From contig DIEQ01000135.1 in the NCBI GenBank assembly GCA_002418705.1, positions 1-64,000 of the forward strand: a DNA stretch of 64,000 nt. The letters are read 5' to 3'. How positions within the stretch are numbered: the first letter of the stretch is position 1; the number at the start of each line of letters is the position of its first letter. The notes under the pieces were generated by a model. It did not search any database. It was not told the DNA's origin and worked only from the letters and a program-made list of their open reading frames with translations. The DNA is from Mageeibacillus sp. UBA5770 (GTDB lineage: Bacteria; Bacillota_A; Clostridia; Saccharofermentanales; Saccharofermentanaceae). A program made the translations under genes and the position numbers. Below, piece after piece: positions 13,132 to 58,680 of this stretch.

Positions 13132-15381
13132 CTATTCCTCAAGTGGTTCGGCTGGAATAAATAATCTTGTGTCTTCTTGTTGTTTTTTTCTTTCACCTGC
13201 CTGTGCGGCAAGCCGGCAAAGCTCAATCTGACTGTCAAGCTTGACTTTACCCCGCAAATCAAGTTTGTGATATGTACCGTCTGAACGAAGCCAGTGACTT
13301 CTCACCGTATCTTCTAATTCTATCTGAAGGACTTCAAACACGCGATTTCTGCAATCCGGATCTTCAACCGGAAATAAAAGTTCAATACGGCGATCCAAAT
13401 TTCGCGGCATCAGGTCAGCTGATGACAAATATAGATCTTCATATCCCTCGTTGAAAAAATAAAAAATACGTGAGTGTTCAAGAAACCGTCCTGTGATCGA
13501 ACGGACCGTAATATTGTCTGATAACCCCTCTACTCCGGGACGCAGGCAGCAAATTCCCCGGACGATCAGATCGATTTTGACACCTGCCTGAGAAGCTTCA
13601 TAAAGGAGCTCGATCATAGCCCCGTCAACCAGGGAATTGACCTTAGCGATGATCGAAGCCTTTTTGCCCTCTTTCGCATTCATGATTTCACGGCGGATCT
13701 TCTTTTCAACAAAGCCCCTGAGCCATAACGGCGCAGGAATCAGCCGGCGCCACTCTGGCGGTTCCGCATATCCGGAAAGCATATTGAAAAACTCTGAAGC
13801 ATCAACGCCAAAAGTCTCGGAACAGGTAAATAAACCTAAATCTGTATAGATGCCAGCAGTAATGTCATTATAATTTCCGGTTCCCAGATGGAGATACCGG
13901 CGAATACCGTCATCGTCACTTCTTACCACCAGCGTAATCTTACTGTGCGTCTTCAGACCGACAAGACCATATATGACATGGCAGCCGGCCTTTTCAAGCA
14001 TCTTTGCCCAGTTGATGTTATTCTCTTCATCAAATCTTGCTTTAAGCTCAACGAGGACCATGACTTGCTTCCCATTCTGGGCGGCCTCTGCGAGATACCG
14101 GATAATCGGCGAACTGCTGCTGACCCTGTACAGCGTCTGCTTGATAGCAAGCACCTGCGGGTCCTGTGCTGCTTCCCTGACGAACTCAATAACCGGGTCG
14201 AAAGATTCATAAGGGTGATGTACCAGACGGTCCTTGAGTCGGATTTGTTCAAAAATATTGCCTTCATCGAACATGCTGGCCGGCTGTGCCTTATAAACGG
14301 GATAACACAAGTCCGGAAAATCGGCAGCAACATTGTTGTATAGCTTCATCAGAAAAGTTAAGTCCAGGGAACCATTGACCGCGAAGGTATCATTCTCTCC
14401 AATTTGAAGTGATTCGGTAAGCCAGGTCAGCAGCCTCTGATCGATGTGTTCATCAACCTCAAGCCGGATAATTTCACCCCACTGACGCATACGTACCTGC
14501 TGTTCGATTACTTTGAGGAGATCTTCCGCTTCGTCCTCGTCAATATCAAGGTCAGCATTTCTCATAATACGGTAATAACCGGATGCCAGGACCGTAGAAC
14601 CGGTAAAAAGAATATCGAGGTTTGCACAGATAATCTGCTCAATCGGAAGAAAACCGATGGCATCAGGAAGTTTTATTTTAAGCAGGCGCGGAATAACTGA
14701 AGGTACCTGCAGTGTTGCAAACTGATAGTTTCTGTCCTCGTCACTGAAATCGTCATTGTCTTTTGTATCTGTACGATCCCCGGATGCGCCTTCGGAATTT
14801 GCGCTGATTAATACACAGAGGTTAAGCCTGCGGTTATAAATCAACGGGAAAGGGCGTGATGCATCAACAGCCATCGGTGTCAGTATCGGATACAGCGTCG
14901 ATCGGAAATACTCATCCGCCTGTGCCCTTCCCTGCTCATTTAGTTCTGAGTAGTCAAGGATATGGATACCCCTTGTCCAAAGTGTAGGGATAAGCGACCG
15001 CGTATATGTTGAGTATTGTAACGCCATGCTGTGCCTGATTTTTTCGGATATTTTTGAAAGCTGTTCTGTCGGCGAAAGTCCGGAAAAATCTCTGATTGTA
15101 TATTGCGCATTCACCATATCTTTAAGTGATGCTACCCTGACAACATAAAATTCATCGAGATTTGATGCTGTAATGGAAAGAAATTTGGCACGTTCAAGCA
15201 GGGGATTCTTTGTATCCCTGGCCTCTGAGAGAATCCGGTCGTTAAATTCAAGCCAGCTTAGTTCACGGTTATAAAAACGGTTTGAATCTGCCTGAATGCC
15301 GGCATTATCCGAAAGCATATGCAGGGTCTCCTGCCTTGCCCCCTTGGATACCTTCTTGTTTTTTGCTTTCTTAGTGGTCAT
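13132..15381 (-). CDS. ppk1: Polyphosphate kinase 1
   Basis: Reversibly polymerises the ATP gamma-phosphate into inorganic polyphosphate. 749 aa with the four PPK1 domains: N-terminal helical domain opening FYNRELSWLEFNDRIL, head domain, and two phospholipase-D-like catalytic domains. DPQVLAIKQTLYRVS, ELKARFDEENNINWAK, GLKTHSK (the phosphorylated His) and HLGTGNYND are all seen. The basic first 15 residues and a short acidic C-terminal end are lineage-specific extensions. Its ATG overlaps the stop of the ppx-like gene by 4 nt, so the two are translationally coupled in one operon driven from the promoter at 16969-16997. Confidence 0.96.
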   Translation of the reverse strand: MTTKKAKNKKVSKGARQETLHMLSDNAGIQADSNRFYNRELSWLEFNDRILSEARDTKNPLLERAKFLSITASNLDEFYVVRVASLKDMVNAQYTIRDFSGLSPTEQLSKISEKIRHSMALQYSTYTRSLIPTLWTRGIHILDYSELNEQGRAQADEYFRSTLYPILTPMAVDASRPFPLIYNRRLNLCVLISANSEGASGDRTDTKDNDDFSDEDRNYQFATLQVPSVIPRLLKIKLPDAIGFLPIEQIICANLDILFTGSTVLASGYYRIMRNADLDIDEDEAEDLLKVIEQQVRMRQWGEIIRLEVDEHIDQRLLTWLTESLQIGENDTFAVNGSLDLTFLMKLYNNVAADFPDLCYPVYKAQPASMFDEGNIFEQIRLKDRLVHHPYESFDPVIEFVREAAQDPQVLAIKQTLYRVSSSSPIIRYLAEAAQNGKQVMVLVELKARFDEENNINWAKMLEKAGCHVIYGLVGLKTHSKITLVVRSDDDGIRRYLHLGTGNYNDITAGIYTDLGLFTCSETFGVDASEFFNMLSGYAEPPEWRRLIPAPLWLRGFVEKKIRREIMNAKEGKKASIIAKVNSLVDGAMIELLYEASQAGVKIDLIVRGICCLRPGVEGLSDNITVRSITGRFLEHSRIFYFFNEGYEDLYLSSADLMPRNLDRRIELLFPVEDPDCRNRVFEVLQIELEDTVRSHWLRSDGTYHKLDLRGKVKLDSQIELCRLAAQAGERKKQQEDTRLFIPAEPLEE

Positions 15382-47674: not shown

Positions 47675-48526
47675 TTAATTTTCGGTCTTTTTCCGGTTGA
47701 GAACATATACTATGCTAACAGCTCCAAAAGCTGCCAGTAGAGCTACGCCCAGAGCTAAAGTTACGGGAGAATCAGATTCACCTGTTTTGGTAACGCCTAA
47801 GACCGAAGGCTTTGTCGGGTCAGCAGATGTTGTCTGACTTGTCACTCCAAGAACAGAAGGCTGCGTTGATGCAGAGGCTGTAGACTCAGTTGCTGCTGTT
47901 GATTCTGTAGCTGCTGTCGTCTCTGTTGCTGCCGTTGTCTCTGTAGCTGCTGTCGTCTCTGTTGCTGCCGTTGTCTCTGTAGCTGCTGTCGTCTCTGTTG
48001 CTGCGGTTGTCTCTGTAGCTGCGGTTGTCTCGGATACTGCTGTCGTTTCTGTAGCTGCTGTCGTCTCTGTTGTCGGAGGAGGCGGCGGAGGCGGAAGCGA
48101 TACTGATACGAGTCCGTAATGTGAGATATCAGGGATATTGTCTCCATCATTTACAGGTGACTGTAAACCGCTTGCTGAAGCTGCCGCAGGGTCAAAGGTG
48201 TATACCCTGTATCCGTCACCGCCTTTAACATAAAGGCTGTTCACCAACACATTTGTTGCCGTAAACGAAACGAATTTATTATCTGTTATTGTAAAGACGA
48301 TGTAACGATCCGTTGGCTCCATGCTTACTGACAAATCTTCGTTGAAATAAACTGTATTATCTACAAAACCTTCAACTTTATAGATCCCGCTATAGTTGCC
48401 GCTGTAATCCACGTAACTAACTGCAGGGGCATCAACTGCCATAACAACATAAGAGCTAAATACTACGACAGCTGTTAATATCGATAGAAGAACCAAATAT
48501 TGGCTTTTTGTATGTGTGTTTTTCAT
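47675..48526 (-). CDS. Secreted, Thr/Glu-repeat cell-surface protein with C-terminal anchor
   Basis: 283 aa. Signal peptide (LVLLSILTAVVVFSSYVVM), a small beta-rich domain of about 110 residues (SGNYSGIYKVEGFVDNTVYF), seven prolines, eleven (E-T/S-T-A-A-T)-type hexads, a doubled PSVLGVT motif, then TKTGESDSP, a hydrophobic helix and the basic end NRKKTEN. The C-terminus has sortase-substrate architecture with TKTGE standing where LPxTG is expected. The Thr-rich stalk probably spans the wall and may be glycosylated. The start is MKNTHTKSQ; upstream lie a long leader with competing hairpins and a strong promoter. No functional domain recognised. Confidence 0.85.
   Translation of the reverse strand: MKNTHTKSQYLVLLSILTAVVVFSSYVVMAVDAPAVSYVDYSGNYSGIYKVEGFVDNTVYFNEDLSVSMEPTDRYIVFTITDNKFVSFTATNVLVNSLYVKGGDGYRVYTFDPAAASASGLQSPVNDGDNIPDISHYGLVSVSLPPPPPPPTTETTAATETTAVSETTAATETTAATETTAATETTAATETTAATETTAATETTAATESTAATESTASASTQPSVLGVTSQTTSADPTKPSVLGVTKTGESDSPVTLALGVALLAAFGAVSIVYVLNRKKTEN
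47883..48074 (-). repeat. 18-bp coding tandem repeat (11 units), with identical 36-bp doublets
   Basis: Eleven 18-bp units encode the Thr/Glu hexads of the surface protein. Two adjacent 36-bp doublets (47919-47954 and 47955-47990) are identical, which indicates recent duplication or slippage and predicts copy-number differences between strains without frame loss. Confidence 0.9.
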
Positions 48527-50934: not shown

Positions 50935-52008
50935 TTAGAGATAACCGCATTCAAGATGAACTTCCCGATTCGGCTCAGGCAGCTTTATCTTATTTTCCCT
51001 GGCCTTCATAAGATAAATCGTACTGTCAAAGCTGACGGACTTAAGCTTTTTGTATAATGGATAGTAGCGGTTATTTTTACTCATGCCGGCTACAACAATA
51101 GGGCAGTTCCTTTTTATGGCTTCGAGGGCCAGATGCGACAGAAGTTCTCTGTATACAGTCTTGTCACTGCCCTTTGCTGTCAAAAGCGTAAGTGTAAGAA
51201 CATTAGCTGTCTGACCTTCGGGGGGCAGATAAATATAGCCTGATTTTTCAAAAATATGAGCAGCCTTTCGAAGGTATTTATATATTCCGCCATAGTGTTT
51301 CACAATATACTGGCGGTAATGTCTCTGATCCCAGAGAGCGCCGAAGGCAGCCAGTTCACCGTCCTTTCTCAAGGCAAAACAATCCGATAACATCAAGCCG
51401 CTGAATTGTTCTTCCAGGTCACGTACAACAGGGAACATCTCATATTTCTTTCCCTCACTTTCAAGAAAGCTGCAGACCGTATCAAGATCATCATGACCTA
51501 TGGCACTAAAGTTGTAAGTATTGTCGATGCGGGCGCACAATGCCCCGGGATTTATCAGAAAAGTCGTATAACCGCACAGGGCAGAGAATTCCGGGAAAAA
51601 AACTCTCGGCTTTCTGCAGAAGATATTCACAGCATTCTCGTTTGCATCAAGAATCGAGCAGTAAGCAGCCGTTTTATCCCTTCTCTCATATTCCAGCGCA
51701 GTCTTGAGGAAGTGGGCGTGATTCGTGTCGCTGATTTTTTTCCGGACACCGCACACATAGGTAAATGGCGTTTCGTTCCCATTAATATAATAACTTCGGC
51801 TAATACAGACCTCCATAAAGGCCGGTTGATCGCTTTGGTCCTTAATGACACCGTAGCTGACGCTTCGACTTTCCTTCTGATATGAGTATACTGGATTAGG
51901 CCTGCGCGTATAAATCAGTTCGAGATCACCTTTGGCCGCTTCCGACTCAATCAGTTCGAGGAGCTTCCCGCCGTCGGCCGGATCCGCCTGTCTTACCTCA
52001 TATTTCAT
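50935..52008 (-). CDS. Two-domain GNAT-like acyltransferase
   Basis: 357 aa from the ATG at 52008, which overlaps the radical SAM A stop by 11 nt. The N-terminal part (EVRQADPADGGKLLELIESEAAKGDLEL) and the middle part (AIGHDDLDTVCSFLESEGKKYEMFP, then DCFALRKDGELAAFGALWDQR) read as two GNAT-fold halves; the classical acetyl-CoA loop is weak, so catalysis is uncertain. Last gene of the B12-radical SAM operon, so it may acylate or tailor the same product or act on a lipid or amino acid. A frame extending 26 codons upstream lies within the radical SAM gene and lacks a better ribosome site. Confidence 0.72.
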   Translation of the reverse strand: MKYEVRQADPADGGKLLELIESEAAKGDLELIYTRRPNPVYSYQKESRSVSYGVIKDQSDQPAFMEVCISRSYYINGNETPFTYVCGVRKKISDTNHAHFLKTALEYERRDKTAAYCSILDANENAVNIFCRKPRVFFPEFSALCGYTTFLINPGALCARIDNTYNFSAIGHDDLDTVCSFLESEGKKYEMFPVVRDLEEQFSGLMLSDCFALRKDGELAAFGALWDQRHYRQYIVKHYGGIYKYLRKAAHIFEKSGYIYLPPEGQTANVLTLTLLTAKGSDKTVYRELLSHLALEAIKRNCPIVVAGMSKNNRYYPLYKKLKSVSFDSTIYLMKARENKIKLPEPNREVHLECGYL

Positions 52009-53365
52009 CTGGCAGTTCCTTCCCGTATTTCTTATTCGTGTCCAGATTGCCGCCCAACGGGATGCCGAACCTTTTATCCACTTCAAAGTGAAAAAGTATA
52101 TTCATCATCCAGTAGACAAGTCGGACACGTCGGTTGCTGACACGGGAATGAAGTGCCCTCCCCCTCATGAAAATGGATCGGAAAGAGAAAAATTTCTGTT
52201 TGTACCGTCTGCACAGATTTCGAAGCTCCTCCGGTGTCAATTGTTTGGGCTTGTATGATATCGTTCCGAATGTGTATCCATCCTGAAGCCACCATTTATC
52301 AGAGAGAAGTCTGCCTTCCTCCTGAAAAGAGCGGTATGTTTCTGTCCCGGGAAATGCCAGAAGATGATTAAAGGCTGTGATAAAAAATGCATGTCTGGTA
52401 CAAAATGCAAGATTCTGGCGAAAGCTTTCTTCGTTATCATGATCAAATCCAAATACGAAACTGGCATAAATACTTATCCCGTTTCTGTGGATTCTTTCAA
52501 CAAGTTCGTCCCGCTCTCCGAGCTTTGTACTCCACTGCTTATTCATCTGCTTGAGGTTGACAGGGTCGATTGATTCAAATCCTATCAGAATCATGACACA
52601 TCCGCTTTCTGCCATCATGCGGATCATTTCCTCATCACGTGCAATGTCCAGCGTAACTTGTGTTGTCCATAAAATATTCAGTTTTTTGACTTCGCGGAAC
52701 AATTCCTTGGCGAACTCTTTGTCCGAGAAGATACTGTCATCTACAAAAAAGAATATCTTATGCCTGCAGCTTTTGATTTCTTCAATAATATCCGGGATTT
52801 CCCTGTGAATATACTGTCTCTGGTAATACACACGGATGGAACAGAAAGAGCAGTCATAATGACAGCCCCTTCCTATTTCCACAAGGCTGACCGGCAGATA
52901 CTTTTTCTGCTTATCCTGGTATATGCTCCTGTCAGGCTGTCCATAGTCGATTGCATTAGGACCCGTATATTCTTCTTTATATGTACCGTTTTCGATGTCG
53001 GACAGAACCTGTGACCATATCCGCTCCGCATTTCCGCGTACAAGGACATCCGCATGCTGTCTTGCATCATCAGGCAGCATGGTAATATGGTAGCCTCCCA
53101 TTATGATCTTCTTGCCTTTTTCACGAAAACGACCGGCAATCTCATAGGCGCGTCTGGCTGTATAGGTTTCCACGGTAATCACGATAACATCAGCGTCTGT
53201 CATATAATCAATCTGCTCAATCCTGTCATCGAAAAAAACACATGGATACTTATCAGGTGTAAGCCGCTTCAGGACAGCAATGGTCAGCGGTTCCATCAGC
53301 CATGACTTCAGATATGTTCCGTGCTTCTTCTTTCCGATAGCCGGTAAAATGAATGCAATCTTCAT
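51998..53365 (-). CDS. B12-binding radical SAM protein (paralogue A)
   Basis: 455 aa from the ATG at 53365; GAGG overlaps the previous stop. N-terminal cobalamin-binding Rossmann domain (residues 1-150) with TVETYTARRAYEI and IMGGYHITMLPDD; radical SAM domain with the cluster motif GCHYDCSFCSI (CX3CX2C) near residue 180, FFVDDSIFSDKEFAKELF and GFESIDPVNLKQMNK; C-terminal helical DUF4070-like part with KWWLQDGYTFG and YKPKQLTPEEL. Enzymes of this layout do C-methylation, ring contraction or C-C bond chemistry in lipids and natural products. Substrate unknown. Fourth in the tandem series. Confidence 0.9.
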   Translation of the reverse strand: MKIAFILPAIGKKKHGTYLKSWLMEPLTIAVLKRLTPDKYPCVFFDDRIEQIDYMTDADVIVITVETYTARRAYEIAGRFREKGKKIIMGGYHITMLPDDARQHADVLVRGNAERIWSQVLSDIENGTYKEEYTGPNAIDYGQPDRSIYQDKQKKYLPVSLVEIGRGCHYDCSFCSIRVYYQRQYIHREIPDIIEEIKSCRHKIFFFVDDSIFSDKEFAKELFREVKKLNILWTTQVTLDIARDEEMIRMMAESGCVMILIGFESIDPVNLKQMNKQWSTKLGERDELVERIHRNGISIYASFVFGFDHDNEESFRQNLAFCTRHAFFITAFNHLLAFPGTETYRSFQEEGRLLSDKWWLQDGYTFGTISYKPKQLTPEELRNLCRRYKQKFFSFRSIFMRGRALHSRVSNRRVRLVYWMMNILFHFEVDKRFGIPLGGNLDTNKKYGKELPDEI

Positions 53366-53372
53366 AGTATCC

Positions 53373-54716
53373 TCACACATCTTTCTCATATCCGAATGTC
53401 ATACCCTGCTTTTCGAAAACTTCATTTCGAAAAAGCGGGTTATACATCAGATATGTAATGAATCGCAGGGGATTACGCATGTTGGTATGAAATTCAAAGA
53501 CCCTGTATATAATGGATTTCTTCGTGTTGAACTTCCTGCGGCACTCATAGGCTGCTGCTGTCAATTCTGCAGCAGTCATGTTCTTAGGAACATATGCGGC
53601 ATAATTAAAACGGTAATCCGGATGGAGCCACCATTTTCCGTCATACAGCAGGCGCCCTTCTTCCTTAAGCTTGTTATAGAAAGGTGTGCCCGGGTAAGGC
53701 ATCAGGATATTGTAAGCTGCAAAGCAAAATTTATTCTCATAGGCGAACCGGTATGTCTCTTCGATACTTTCGAGCGTATCTGTATCATGTCCGATGGTAA
53801 AGGCGGCCCATGTCTGCAGACCCCATTTGCGGAGCTCACGTATTGCCCAGCCATAATGGTCCGAAACAAATTTTTTGTTAACGCCCTTGCCCATGGCATT
53901 AATACTTTCTGCGCGTATGGATTCAAACCCGATTACATGCCCGAGGCATCCGCTTTTAACCATGAGGGACTTGAGTTCCCTGTCTTCGAGCATATCAATG
54001 CTGCCCTGGCTCACCCACTTAACTTTAAGGGGAATTATGGCGCGGAACAATTCTTTCGCCTTTTCGCGGTCAGCGACAATATTATCATCGACAAAAAACA
54101 GGAATCTGCGCTTCTGGCCTTTGATCTCGGCAACGACTTCATCAACCGGACGGCAATACTGGTGACGGTTAAAATATACGCTGGAAGCGCAATAACTGCA
54201 GTGATATTTGCAGCCTCTGCTGAACTGAAGCAGCGAAAGAGGCAGATATTTCTTTCCTTCGTATATATCCCTGCGCGTCAGGACGCCTTTCTGGGGAATC
54301 AGGACCGGATTACAGACATATCTTTCTTTTAGCTTACCGGCAAGAAGGTCGCGGATCATCTCTGCCCACTTATCCTCGGCATCGCCAATCATGATACTGT
54401 CCGCATGCATGGCTGTCTCGTCAGGCAGCAGTGTCACGTGCATCCCACCCATGATTACCTTTACTCCCCGTTTTCTGAATTGCGCGCTGATTTCATAGGA
54501 ACGTCTTGCCGTATAGGTCTCCACGGTGATGGCGGCCAGATCGGTTGGTTCGTCATAAGGAATCGACTCGAGCCTGTCGTCATACATGACCACCTCGATA
54601 CTGTCCGGAGTCAGAGCCGCGAGTACGCCAAGCTGGAGCGGTTCCATGCTGGCATTGTCTATAAAATCACTATACTCACGCCTACCGACGTTGGGCTTAA
54701 TGAGTGTTATTTTCAT
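53373..54716 (-). CDS. B12-binding radical SAM protein (paralogue B)
   Basis: 447 aa. Same architecture as its neighbours: TVETYTARRSYEISAQFRK and IMGGMHVTLLPDE in the cobalamin domain, SRGCKYHCSYCASSVYF as cluster motif, FFVDDNIVADREKAKELF, GHVIGFESIRAESINAMGKG, and KWWLHPDYRF with VPKNMTAAEL in the C-terminal part. Its start overlaps the end of paralogue C by 20 nt; AGGTG is 6 nt before the ATG. Most similar to paralogue A by eye, so a tandem duplication is likely. Confidence 0.9.
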   Translation of the reverse strand: MKITLIKPNVGRREYSDFIDNASMEPLQLGVLAALTPDSIEVVMYDDRLESIPYDEPTDLAAITVETYTARRSYEISAQFRKRGVKVIMGGMHVTLLPDETAMHADSIMIGDAEDKWAEMIRDLLAGKLKERYVCNPVLIPQKGVLTRRDIYEGKKYLPLSLLQFSRGCKYHCSYCASSVYFNRHQYCRPVDEVVAEIKGQKRRFLFFVDDNIVADREKAKELFRAIIPLKVKWVSQGSIDMLEDRELKSLMVKSGCLGHVIGFESIRAESINAMGKGVNKKFVSDHYGWAIRELRKWGLQTWAAFTIGHDTDTLESIEETYRFAYENKFCFAAYNILMPYPGTPFYNKLKEEGRLLYDGKWWLHPDYRFNYAAYVPKNMTAAELTAAAYECRRKFNTKKSIIYRVFEFHTNMRNPLRFITYLMYNPLFRNEVFEKQGMTFGYEKDV

Positions 54717-56022
54717 TCGCTACACCTAGCTTTCTTCCCTGTTTGAACCTTACTTCCCTGCCCGAAATGACCCCTGCCCCCAGAAAAATGATCAAATTGG
54801 AAAGTGACCGGCTATTGGCTTTGCAGTTTGTAATTCTCCGCAGGATGCCCCTGACTGAATGAAATTCATATCGGGCCTTCCTGCAGCTCTCTACAAATTC
54901 CTGTACAGTCATACCTGCAGGAACAAGCATGGCATCACCATACCTGTATCCATCATCGATCCACCAGAATCTGCGCACAAGGCGTCCTTCCGAATCAAGT
55001 CTTTTATAAAGCGGTGTGCCGGGCATGGCCATGAGCGGATTAAAATTGGCAACGGCAAACTTATGCTTCATGGCAAAATCCATCAGTATCTTCGCCGTAT
55101 CTTTCGTATCGCTGTCATACCCTATGATGAAGGTCCCGTAAATCATCAGTCCTGCATCATATATATTTCGGATTATCTTCTCATAGTCACCGCATGCGAT
55201 ATTGGCACCTTTTCCCATTTGCTTTAGATTATTAATATTGAGCGACTCAAATCCAATCAGAACCATGATACAGCCGCTCGCGCGCATGCTTTTCAGCAGG
55301 TCCGGATTATTCGCGGCGTCCATGCTGATCTGGCACACCCATTTCTTCTTAAGCGGCTTGAGTGCACGAACCAGTTCAGCTGCTTTATCGGCATTGGAAA
55401 AAAGATTGTCATCGGCAAAAAACAAATACTTCTGCCTGAGATTACTTATGTCATCAATTACATTTTCAAGATTTCGAAGCCGTATACCGTCAGGATAAAA
55501 GGCATGGATAGAGCAAAAATCACAGCTGAACTTGCAGCCCCTGCAGAACTGTGCAAGTCCGATCATCCGGTAATACTTGTGCTGCAGGACAGAATAATCG
55601 TACTTTGTATCGGCAAGGCTGAAATCTCCATGGCTCTCATATTGCTGCTTCAGTCTGCCTGCCGCAAGATCTTGCAGCATGGATGGCCAGGTATCCTCTG
55701 CGTCACCGATAATGATCGCATCCGCATGCTGCAGGCATTCCTGCGGCATCATGGATGGATGGAAACCTCCCATGATAACCGTCTTGCCTTCCATCCTGAA
55801 TCTGTCAGCCAGCTGATAGGCACGCCGTGCGGCAAAGGTTTCAACGGTCATTGCAATAACAGGAGCAGGAATATCCTCTGGCAGCTTCCTGGCTCTTTCA
55901 TCATAGAAATCAATTTGGATTTCCGGCGGTGTAAGCGGACGTATCACAGTAAAAATAAGCGGCATCATAACGTCCAGAGCCGGTTCGCCAAACATGGACG
56001 GACGGATAAACGTGATCCTCAT
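54697..56022 (-). CDS. B12-binding radical SAM protein (paralogue C)
   Basis: 441 aa. TVETFAARRAYQLADRFRM and IMGGFHPSMMPQE, cluster motif CRGCKFSCDFCSIHAF, FFADDNLFSNADKAAELV, VLIGFESLNINNLKQMGKG, and FWWIDDGYRYG with VPAGMTVQEF. The segment before the cluster lacks the longer linker present in A and B. Start overlaps paralogue D by 4 nt (ATGA), so translation is coupled. Confidence 0.9.
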   Translation of the reverse strand: MRITFIRPSMFGEPALDVMMPLIFTVIRPLTPPEIQIDFYDERARKLPEDIPAPVIAMTVETFAARRAYQLADRFRMEGKTVIMGGFHPSMMPQECLQHADAIIIGDAEDTWPSMLQDLAAGRLKQQYESHGDFSLADTKYDYSVLQHKYYRMIGLAQFCRGCKFSCDFCSIHAFYPDGIRLRNLENVIDDISNLRQKYLFFADDNLFSNADKAAELVRALKPLKKKWVCQISMDAANNPDLLKSMRASGCIMVLIGFESLNINNLKQMGKGANIACGDYEKIIRNIYDAGLMIYGTFIIGYDSDTKDTAKILMDFAMKHKFAVANFNPLMAMPGTPLYKRLDSEGRLVRRFWWIDDGYRYGDAMLVPAGMTVQEFVESCRKARYEFHSVRGILRRITNCKANSRSLSNLIIFLGAGVISGREVRFKQGRKLGVANENNTH

Positions 56023-57389
56023 ACTCTGCCTTCCCCGGATACCACGGCCTCCGGAATATCACTGTTGTCCAGCATCATGCCTTCATCGAATATATGAAAA
56101 TTTTTTGCATATCTGCGATATCCGATATTGGCAGCAAAATAAACGGCATATAAAATATTGATCCGGAATAAATTCCTTACATCGACTCTTTTAAATATGC
56201 TCTTTATGCTGTATGCCTTATTCCATGCCGTATAAATTCCTTGCTCAAGTTCTTCTTTGGTCATGTTCTTGGGTTTATAAACGACATGTTCGACATCGTA
56301 CAGCGCCCATTCGCGTTCAATGATTCTCCCCTGCTCTTCGAGCTCATTGAAGAACGGGGTTTTCGGAAACGGCGTTATGACCGCAAACCGCGGCAGGTCG
56401 ATCTTGATCTCATCACACATTTTGACTGTGCGTTCAAATACATCTTTCCCGTCACCGTCAGCACCGAAAGCAAAACACCCCATGACCATGATTCCATATC
56501 GGTGCAGGGAACTCATAAGTACCTTATATTCGGAAACGGAATTTACACCTTTATGAATATCCTTCTGTGTTTCCTGATTAACGGATTCAAAACCGATCAG
56601 AAGTCCTTTGCAGCCGCTCTTGCGAAAAAGATCTAATAGCTCCGGATCATGTCCGATTGAAGTTGTAGTCAGCCCAAACCACCATTTTTTCAGCGGTATC
56701 ATAGCGGTAAAGAGTTCCTTGGCAAACGACACATCGGATATCAGGTTCACATCGGGGAATACAACAAACTTGCCCTTAAGTGTCCGGATCTCGGTGATAA
56801 TATCGTCGATGGTCCGCTTATAGAGGGTTTTGCCGAATGCCTGCGGATATGCGCAGAAAGTGCATGTATGGCAGCAGCCCCGGATGGCCTCAACAGTATT
56901 TAATGTGATGTACTTGCTTTTGTCCAGCAAGTCTTTTCGCGGAAGCGGCCGGCCTTCGATCGTAGTTATGCTGTCCTGATGATACATTGGCTTAAGGCAG
57001 CCGTTTTTATAATCATTCAGTGCCCTTGGAAAATTATCCTCCCCAAGTCCGGTGATCACGCTGTCAGCATGCTTCGCGGCTTCCTCCGGCATCAGGGTTG
57101 GGTGAACACCTCCGATAATCACACAGATCCCGCAGCTGCGGAAGTAATCCGCATACCGGTAGCAGCGCATCGCCGTACCGGTGATACAGGTCATAGCGAT
57201 AACATCAGCATCCAGGTCCAGAGGAATCGGACCGGCTGTCTCGTCATAGATCTTAATGTCAGCGTCAAGTTCCTTCGGGACAAGGGCTGCAAGAAGCGCA
57301 AGTGTTATCGGCGCATAATGCAGGTTCTTATGAAAAAGCCCGTTATATCGGTGCATGGCTCCAGCAGGTGCAAGAAACGCAATCTTCAT
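56019..57389 (-). CDS. B12-binding radical SAM protein (paralogue D)
   Basis: 456 aa, the most diverged of the four. MTCITGTAMRCYRYADYFR and IIGGVHPTLMPEEAAKHAD replace the TVETYTARR-type segment; cluster motif IRGCCHTCTFCAYPQAF; FPDVNLISDVSFAKELF in place of the DDN motif; GLLIGFESVNQETQKDIHKG; VVYKPKNMTKEELEQG in the C-terminal part. GAGGGGGAG precedes the ATG, 14 nt after the permease stop. First radical SAM gene of the operon; its divergence suggests a different reaction or substrate from A-C. Confidence 0.9.
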   Translation of the reverse strand: MKIAFLAPAGAMHRYNGLFHKNLHYAPITLALLAALVPKELDADIKIYDETAGPIPLDLDADVIAMTCITGTAMRCYRYADYFRSCGICVIIGGVHPTLMPEEAAKHADSVITGLGEDNFPRALNDYKNGCLKPMYHQDSITTIEGRPLPRKDLLDKSKYITLNTVEAIRGCCHTCTFCAYPQAFGKTLYKRTIDDIITEIRTLKGKFVVFPDVNLISDVSFAKELFTAMIPLKKWWFGLTTTSIGHDPELLDLFRKSGCKGLLIGFESVNQETQKDIHKGVNSVSEYKVLMSSLHRYGIMVMGCFAFGADGDGKDVFERTVKMCDEIKIDLPRFAVITPFPKTPFFNELEEQGRIIEREWALYDVEHVVYKPKNMTKEELEQGIYTAWNKAYSIKSIFKRVDVRNLFRINILYAVYFAANIGYRRYAKNFHIFDEGMMLDNSDIPEAVVSGEGRV

Positions 57390-57403
57390 ATAATCTCCCC
57401 CTC

Positions 57404-58543
57404 TCAGACAAAGGAAAACACAGCCATAATGATATAGAAAACAAACAATGCAGGCAGAAGTAATTTGCTGTGGGAATATCGGCCAAGGATCAAACCGCGT
57501 TTTACACCTCTGACCGCATTTCTGAATGCAGGCAGGATAAGGACTGCAATAATAATGGCAACGGCTCCGCCGACAAGTTCAATGTAGGAACGGTACCCGA
57601 ACGGCAGGATCACGGCAAGCAGAAGGACAGGAAGCGTAGCGCTGATCCAGCACAGGAACCGGCTGATTTTGAGTTCTTCATGTATAATATCCAGCTGTGC
57701 AAGGGATATCGATAAAAATGACGTCAGCATGGCAAGGATAACAAATACGGCACAGGCTATCTTGACACCTGTGCCATATACTTCACTTAAGCCGACAGTC
57801 GCAACCTTAGTAACTGACGGGCTAACTTTGAGCACAATCATCGTAAATACAAACGTAATTGCTGCATTTGTTCCAATACCGGCCAAAATACATTTCTTTA
57901 CTTTGCTTTTATCATGAAGGCCCGCAGCAATCTGAGGTACGGAAAAGAGTGCCGAAAAAGAAAACATACACAGGCTGTATAGCGCTGTTGTGCGAACGAT
58001 ACTGCCGGATATTAACACGACCTGCCCGTCCGTGTGCCCGACGGCCAGAACAGACAGCATGACAATAACACCGAACATGATAATCATCGAATACTTCTCG
58101 CTGATACCGATCACCTTGAGTCCCGGCAGGACGACAAGCGAAGCAGCAATATAGAATACTACCTTTGCTGCCCAGCCGGGCATTCCAAAAACATCCGTCA
58201 TAACCTCAGCGGCACATGTAAGGTAAAGGGTAAGGTTCAGGAGAAGAACCAGGGCCAAAAATACAAAGAAGGCTCTCGAAGCAATTCTGCCGCCATTGCC
58301 GCGGAATAATTGCTTCTTGAATACCTCCATAAGCTGAACAGATGGTGAAGAAAGAAATACCAGATCAGCCACAAGCAAATGAAGAACCGTACTAACAGCA
58401 TAGGCAGCGATTACTGCAGCTGCTATCTGCACAATACCAAGTCCTGTTGATGCAAACGGTATGGCGAGAATACCCGTTCCGACTCCGGCCCCGGCAACCA
58501 GCATACCGGCTTCAAACGGAGTTAATTTTTTCTCAGCAGCCAT
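57404..58543 (-). CDS. Aromatic/neutral amino-acid permease (AAAP/HAAAP type)
   Basis: 379 aa from the ATG at 58543 (AGAGGG about 9 nt upstream; a start three codons earlier is too close to that site). About 10-11 hydrophobic helices. TPFEAGMLVAGAGVGTGILAIPFASTG near the N-terminus, split here over two helices, is the signature of the tyrosine/tryptophan-type and related amino-acid permeases. Leads the operon followed by four radical SAM genes and a GNAT, suggesting import of an amino-acid precursor, or export of the product. Direction and substrate are inference. Confidence 0.83.
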   Translation of the reverse strand: MAAEKKLTPFEAGMLVAGAGVGTGILAIPFASTGLGIVQIAAAVIAAYAVSTVLHLLVADLVFLSSPSVQLMEVFKKQLFRGNGGRIASRAFFVFLALVLLLNLTLYLTCAAEVMTDVFGMPGWAAKVVFYIAASLVVLPGLKVIGISEKYSMIIMFGVIVMLSVLAVGHTDGQVVLISGSIVRTTALYSLCMFSFSALFSVPQIAAGLHDKSKVKKCILAGIGTNAAITFVFTMIVLKVSPSVTKVATVGLSEVYGTGVKIACAVFVILAMLTSFLSISLAQLDIIHEELKISRFLCWISATLPVLLLAVILPFGYRSYIELVGGAVAIIIAVLILPAFRNAVRGVKRGLILGRYSHSKLLLPALFVFYIIMAVFSFV

Positions 58544-58680
58544 ATTCACCATCCCTCTGAAAGATGGATATTTTCGAAGAATATCTTATATATATTTTAC
58601 ACCAATTTTAGCGTTCATGACTGCTGAATTATATCCGTAGAATTCTCCCTTCCGTTAGCTGGCCTGATTTTCAATCCTGG

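Follow-up and report, generated by a model that had tools for sequence, protein, structure and literature searches.

Among the acyltransferases of the GNAT fold, the eukaryotic N-myristoyltransferases (NMTs) put their own last residue to catalytic use. The catalytic base of human NMT1 is the carboxylate of its terminal residue, Gln496, according to the available portion of the source (PMC7048800), and the accessible text of a review of the superfamily describes this use of a C-terminal carboxylate as unique to NMT (PMC4964394). Another route to an acyl-amide is that of OlsH, which, in the part of its description at hand, forms the N-acyl ornithine that the alpha/beta-hydrolase OlsI completes to a lipid (PMC12493201). 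Here, we describe an operon of six co-directional minus-strand genes in a stretch of 64,000 nucleotides of contig DIEQ01000135.1 from Mageeibacillus sp. UBA5770 (this whole stretch is called the window), in which a permease gene is followed by four B12-type radical S-adenosylmethionine (SAM) paralogues, D, C, B and A, and then by the gene of a GNAT-like protein that we call NAT. We suggest that this operon could quite well be an accessory pathway for an acyl-amide, probably an N-acyl amino acid or an aminolipid, which the radical SAM enzymes would tailor. NAT is read as a putative N-acyltransferase because of its fold and fixed terminus, the substrate as an amino acid because the permease fits, and the acyl part as fatty because genes for a desaturase, a PAP2 protein and a hydrolase accompany the set in relatives.

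The NAT protein and its carboxyl terminus

The NAT gene (50935..52008, minus strand) encodes 357 amino acids, and the AlphaFold2 model of the protein (pLDDT 88.4, pTM 0.88) consists of two fused GNAT halves. In a structure search the model matches both tandem GNATs and NMTs; the Z scores tie (21.2 for the NMT of A. fumigatus, 21.1 for the tandem GNAT MAB_4324) and the top rank in Foldseek goes to a bacterial GNAT, 2i00. The gene had been called GNAT-like in a first-pass annotation of this DNA, and the modelled fold agrees; it is described more exactly as a tandem GNAT that aligns end to end with eukaryotic NMTs. Among the matches listed, residue 357 of the model, its last, is aligned in 46 of 50, and all 46 are NMTs; in the rows of human NMT1 its partner is residue 496, apart from 1rxt with its different numbering. 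The alignments with the DeltaC3-truncated NMT1 6sk3 and with 8hbs end earlier, at 352 and 355, and 7q3a and 4zm6, the two chains that are not NMTs, are aligned just to 336 and 334. Identity between NAT and the NMTs is 9-14% in the alignments listed. At E<=0.01 neither Pfam nor NCBIfam gives a match for NAT, none of 21 NAT members matches an NMT family at E<=1 (nine of them match Acetyltransf_9 weakly), and the NAT profile A2 retrieves no NMT chain from the Protein Data Bank (PDB) at E<=1. Our claim is that NAT may work like an NMT, not that it is one.

The terminus of the protein is fixed. In the window NAT ends in E-C-G-Y-L (50938..50952, minus strand) with the stop codon next, an instance of the conserved ending [ED]x[GA]xL-COOH. 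Of 137 NAT relatives, 135 have Leu as their final residue, 135 carry Glu or Asp at the fifth position from the end, and 128 show the full pattern; this count takes in the misses and two short fragments (P0200 and P0201), and leaves out the four most divergent NATs, those of Citrobacter, Acinetobacter, Burkholderia and the genome G836. All of 53 NATs end at the same alignment column. The corresponding figures are 39/50 for A, 5/28 for B, 7/25 for C, 8/43 for D, 9/22 for E (a fifth radical SAM paralogue, found in relatives) and 22/41 for the permease, all counted on open reading frames (ORFs) inside set length ranges, by which 53 of the 55 NATs were taken in. The distant proteins end in EIALL (Citrobacter), EVGRI (Acinetobacter) and EIYLV (Burkholderia). 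The profile alignment of the Citrobacter NAT extends through its last residue; the Acinetobacter and Burkholderia proteins match at 86.5 and 84.0 bits in alignments that stop at model positions 321 and 319, so that the likeness of their tails is judged by eye. Such conservation of the tail fits the demands of a carboxylate-base mechanism, which the model leads us to infer for NAT.

The Cys of the ECGLL tail was considered as a reactive thiol or chemical handle and was set aside: it is Val in 45 of the 137 relatives and another residue in 10, and with 55 replacements in all, a reactive thiol is not what is conserved. This bears on a different explanation of the operon, the maturation of a ribosomally synthesized and post-translationally modified peptide (RiPP), in which the radical SAM enzymes would act on a small peptide or on the tail of NAT as carrier or scaffold. 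The multiplicity of radical SAM enzymes and the conserved, strictly terminal position of the tail would suit such a scheme. However, the tail lacks a constant Cys to serve as a handle, and Acinetobacter has it too, although the 16.7 kb covered there showed no relative of A-E. The intergenic gaps of the window operon are at most 14 nt, and the neighbour survey described below held no precursor-like family, though ORFs shorter than 90 amino acids lay outside that survey. The first-pass annotation had likewise seen no precursor-peptide gene, and we find none, nor a polyketide synthase or non-ribosomal peptide synthetase gene, among the operon genes; small ORFs were not surveyed systematically. 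A RiPP is, of all the explanations considered, the one to which we give the least credence.

Recurrence of the gene set and the radical SAM paralogues

A contig search with the alignment of A, whose presence was the sole criterion of selection, returned 56 loci. One of these (L056) is a weak match devoid of operon genes; the other 55 belong to related bacteria, and two of them (L054 and L055) come from one isolate. The NAT gene follows A in 54 of the 55, and the contig of L054 ends within A. The operon arrangement is not a matter of chance, being found again in 55 loci, complete or truncated where a contig stops. Unrelated contexts in relatives had been named beforehand as evidence against a functional unit, and the neighbourhood survey shows the opposite, a set that is kept together. 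With the window counted (n=56), the commonest orders are permease-D-C-B-A-GNAT (16) and permease-D-E-A-GNAT (10), followed by permease-D-A-GNAT (8) and permease-D-E-C-B-A-GNAT (6). D is present in all 48 loci where the sequence extends to its place, the remaining seven starting inside or just before a later gene. The core consists of A, D and NAT; C and B usually occur together, and E, which is not in the window operon, is optional.

The survey of neighbours (ORFs of at least 90 amino acids within 6 kb) found an ABC ATPase in 15 loci; two further families occur in four loci each. In four Butyrivibrio-type loci (L053, L051, L039 and L035) the last 15 nt or so of NAT are shared with a downstream ABC ATPase ORF, the extent depending on the start of that ORF, and in L038 (1369-5958) an opposite-strand gene and others, including by eye ABC-transporter-like ones, lie between D and E, probably as an insertion into the operon. 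A divergent set, L063, has the order E-C-B-D-A-NAT, with neither permease nor X-GH3 (a gene pair described below) in 19 kb; GH3 was also not found genome-wide.

The titles of the carriers name Lachnospiraceae, Oscillospiraceae, Sedimentibacter, Family XIII, Peptococcaceae, a Bacillales metagenome-assembled genome (MAG) and a Micrococcales MAG. Among the cultured carriers are Butyrivibrio sp. NC2007, Butyrivibrio sp. CB08 and Sedimentibacter saalensis DSM 13558. The NAT profile matches 3 of 397 genomes in the family of Butyrivibrio sp. NC2007 (G001) and 5 of 79 in its genus, 4 of 391 in the class of Sedimentibacter saalensis (G003), and 1 of 296 in the class of the Micrococcales MAG, the single match being that same MAG. 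The genome on which each count was centred, already known as a carrier, is part of the count, and the count for the genus contains a second known carrier. The distribution of the set is sporadic. These figures weigh on the link to diabolic acid drawn in the first-pass annotation. Membrane-spanning lipids are typical of Butyrivibrio, and the operon might couple acyl tails through radicals to give diabolic acids or some other core lipid of the membrane. One report mentions a proposed radical mechanism of diabolic acid formation (PMC8941075); radical SAM enzymes, lipid-type neighbours in relatives and occurrence in Butyrivibrio are all in keeping with this idea. The NAT marker, however, is too rare in the NC2007 genus and family, even with the known carriers included, so that a genus-typical lipid is unlikely to be its product, and the link is not supported. 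The set also occurs on a Citrobacter plasmid, and the permease, GH3 and NAT would be left unexplained. We therefore consider the diabolic acid explanation improbable.

In the window the operon extends from 58552 to 50935, and the gene order and strand given in the first-pass annotation are borne out by the coordinates. The permease gene (57404..58552) was correctly recognized, but its start lies at 58552; the 58543 given earlier is the next Met. It is separated by 14 nt from D (56019..57389), which overlaps C (54697..56022) by 4 nt; C overlaps B (53373..54716) by 20 nt; B and A (51998..53365, 455 amino acids) are 7 nt apart, the start of A being placed at 53365 because its relatives begin there; and A overlaps the NAT gene by 11 nt. 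The assignments of A, B, C and D rest on Pfam, on the clade of each in the tree and on PDB matches. A longer A (P0025, 615 amino acids) was not used further: it has an internal repeat of A and is probably an error of assembly. An Rfam scan of positions 1-64000 gave no family at gathering score, tRNA included. A search of the window and of 21 loci out of the 56 found, at gathering scores, no riboswitch or T-box that might hint at the amino acid; its six matches were tRNAs. Elsewhere in the window, the protein of 47675-48526 resembles a wall- or membrane-anchored surface protein: it has a long TTE/ATET repeat, and a hydrophobic stretch at its C-terminus.

Each of A-D carries one CX3CX2C motif, as had been noted, and exceeds the Pfam Radical_SAM cut-off of 29.5 bits (A 76.6, B 40.9, C 48.4, D 60). 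The cobalamin-type domain earlier ascribed to all four passes its Pfam cut-off of 32.1 bits in D (34.2), whereas A-C score 25.8-26.9, below it; the DUF4070-like C-terminus ascribed to them is not supported, none of A-D having a DUF4070 match at E<=0.01. The top NCBIfam score of each is HpnJ or BchE. Nevertheless, an assignment to the HpnJ, BchE and rSAM_ladder_B12 families (TIGR03471, TIGR02026 and TIGR04072), the first and third of which the first-pass annotation had envisaged, fails at equivalog level, with 61-92 bits against cut-offs of 577.6, 481.35 and 360. The segments said to be near-identical in A-C are short motifs; as whole proteins A-C are just 35-40% identical pairwise, and D is 31-35% identical to them. 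In a maximum-likelihood tree of 83 of the 182 proteins of suitable length, drawn from 20 of the 56 sources, five clades A-E have bootstrap values of 99-100%, and a recent triplication with one diverged member, as first proposed, is therefore rejected. To judge from their sequences, A-E are five old orthologous sets, and the view that these B12-type paralogues have distinct roles is supported.

The best solved relative of D, B and C is 6fd2 (AprD4), which D's profile finds at E 2.4e-15; CysS, the tryptophan methyltransferase or TokK also match for some, and D matches the tryptophan C2-methyltransferase 6wte and CysS. As 6fd2, AprD4 by name, falls in a diol-dehydratase family, methylation is not assured for these proteins, and dehydration or rearrangement are equally open. 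The best solved match of A is instead 9ccb, which, as the listing of an MgmA paper (PMC11796369) suggests, is perhaps MgmA; no chain of the membrane-spanning lipid synthases Tes or Mss is among A's five PDB matches at E<=0.001. A separate tandem run of four B12-type radical SAM relatives, 23-33% identical to A-E, with what appears by eye to be a methyltransferase-like gene between two of them, was seen in Acetoanaerobium noterae (NZ_CP154629.1, L084 4586-10595).

Versions in other lineages and the nature of the product

The permease belongs to a distinct subfamily of the Trp/Tyr (HAAAP) family: that of the window reaches 34.8 bits against PF03222 (Trp_Tyr_perm; cut-off 22), and all 16 aligned members, the window included, match it. 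It is present in 44 of the 46 loci that contain the region before D, nine others being uninformative. L029 has neither permease nor replacement. In L002 the permease is absent and its place is taken by a protein X of about 235 amino acids and a GH3-family protein. Since the X-GH3 pair replaces the permease in some lineages, amide formation or acyl supply may be rerouted there. Known GH3 members form acyl-amide bonds. The pair recurs in the divergent sets L071 and L072, and in the genome G836 it lies with B and D on one contig, the A-NAT pair being on another. X occurs in 3 of the 391 genomes, all three among the 4 with a NAT match. GH3 was found in 5 of 17 carriers tested, adjoining the set or X in 4 of the 5, against 1 of 14 genomes in a control search. 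The OlsH model gives the relatives' GH3 proteins 61.7 and 64.3 bits (L071 and L072), 42.5 and 41.9, below the equivalog cut-off of 620, and does not match the Acinetobacter GH3; none of the six operon proteins of the window is a GH3. Neither X nor the permease has a PDB match, and X is not counted as a GNAT, since its profile comparison with NAT gave just 17.5% probability. In L042 and L048 an alpha/beta-hydrolase gene lies between permease and D.

Three more remote versions enlarge this picture. On the plasmid NZ_CP134684.1 of Citrobacter portucalensis (L083, from a gull cloaca), which is typed as mobilizable, the order is X-GH3-D-A-NAT-C-B-PAP2-hypothetical, with E and a fatty acid desaturase on the other strand. 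A quick tree places its five radical SAM proteins one in each of the clades A-E, with support of 72 for A, 86 for E and at least 98 for B, C and D. In this tree, which carries a long-branch warning, the four Acetoanaerobium outgroup proteins do not group and one (out_3) stands beside E, so that A-E are not established as one exclusive family. No further copy of the Citrobacter set or of its B gene was found in E. coli genomes, other plasmids (at DNA level) or phages. The PAP2 protein (13351-13995) matches an NCBIfam model of phosphoinositol dihydroceramide synthase at 24.5 bits against a cut-off of 480, which hints at a head-group step. In Acinetobacter baumannii (NZ_CP064203.1, L086 7953-12838) X, GH3, an outer-membrane efflux protein and NAT stand in a row, preceded by HlyD and MFS-type (by eye) efflux genes and an amidase, and with no relative of A-E in the stretch this is possibly a radical-SAM-free version of the pathway. 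In Burkholderia arboris (NZ_CP101525.1, L085 7950-15335) X, NAT, a PF10118 protein on the other strand, a fatty acid desaturase, GH3 and a Rieske protein are found; again the stretch holds no relative of A-E.

The lipid-type product that the first-pass annotation suggested is probable, and its support comes from outside the window: a GH3 weakly related to OlsH, the alpha/beta-hydrolase in two operons, and PAP2 and desaturase on the Citrobacter plasmid. Here lies the chief weakness of the acyl-amide proposal, since these lipid-type neighbours come from lineages other than that of the window, and in the latter the permease is the rule. The main rival takes the product to be a small, non-lipid natural product derived from an amino acid: the permease would import an aromatic amino acid, the radical SAM enzymes would methylate or dehydrate it, and NAT would add a short acyl or aminoacyl group (in the manner of FemX) for activity or self-protection. 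The constant Trp_Tyr family of the permease speaks for it, as does the profile of D, which matches 6wte, CysS and AprD4; tryptophan C2-methyltransferase, CysS and AprD4 are enzymes of small-molecule antibiotics. The sporadic distribution suits specialised metabolism, and plant GH3 enzymes act on hormone acids. It has to contend, however, with the desaturase and PAP2 that adjoin the Citrobacter set, the desaturase of the Burkholderia set and the alpha/beta-hydrolase of L042 and L048, and we regard it as rather unlikely.

In the acyl-amide pathway that we favour, the permease would supply the amino-acid substrate or move the product. NAT would make the amide in the style of an NMT, its two GNAT halves holding acyl donor and amine and its own C-terminal carboxylate, which a nearly constant last residue and the Glu at the fifth position from the end would keep in position, deprotonating the amine. 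A and D, the constant pair, would be indispensable: they would modify a C-H position in the acyl or the amino-acid part, whether by methylation, by dehydration or by rearrangement. Optional further steps would come from E and from the C-B pair. In some other lineages, X and the GH3 acyl-amide synthetase would stand in the permease's place. The order of the steps and the product itself are likewise conjectural. More tentatively, one may envisage a bacterial acyl-amide pathway, common to Clostridia, an actinobacterial MAG (A-D) and an enterobacterial plasmid, in which an acyltransferase with its own C-terminal carboxylate as base and the five B12-type radical SAM enzymes A-E, a set both old and fixed, would make radically tailored acyl-amides or aminolipids of a class not yet described. 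If true, tail-carboxylate catalysis, to the extent that the available review text confines it to NMT among the GNATs (PMC4964394), would extend to bacteria and offer a clue to the evolution of NMT-like tandem GNATs; gut and rumen anaerobes and a plasmid typed as mobilizable might share a possibly lipid-type biosynthetic class; and up to five radical SAM enzymes would act on one product.

Comparison with known systems

A literature search, in which preprints and most subscription papers lay outside the scope and one query was too broad to be a strong test, found no description of this gene set among the papers listed, as judged by their titles or the opening of their abstracts. With the eukaryotic NMTs, as far as the sources at hand describe them, NAT shares the tandem-GNAT fold over its full length and a fixed last residue that aligns with the residue of the catalytic carboxylate. 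It differs in its low identity, in the lack of a Pfam NMT match and in being a bacterial protein within a biosynthetic operon. The OlsH/OlsI pathway of ornithine lipids is approached by the GH3 that accompanies the module in some relatives and by the alpha/beta-hydrolase, of the OlsI fold class, in two operons. However, the GH3 proteins of L071 and L072 reach just 62-64 of the 620 bits required, the window operon is without GH3, and the available text on that pathway mentions no radical SAM or NMT-like gene (PMC12493201).

AprD4, TsrM, CysS, TokK and other B12-type radical SAM enzymes have the same domain order and CX3CX2C motif as the present paralogues, and D, B and C match them in sequence; A-E nonetheless form separate clades, and A has its best solved match elsewhere. 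The HpnJ, BchE and ladderane-type enzymes give A-D their top NCBIfam scores, but far below the cut-offs, and no genes of such pathways are among the operon proteins. The bacterial N-acyl amino acid synthases and OlsB/GlsB make, by GNAT-type N-acylation, the same kind of bond as that proposed for NAT, to go by the accessible part of the source (PMC11631085); NAT, in contrast, matches no such Pfam or NCBIfam family and is a tandem rather than a single GNAT. A study of N-acyl tyrosines, in its available portion, deals with single NAS genes accompanied by genes for ThiF and nitroreductase proteins; it offers no link to the present set (PMC12479983). The parts of the operon are thus of known kinds, whereas their combination, and the NMT-like terminus in bacteria, appear to be new.

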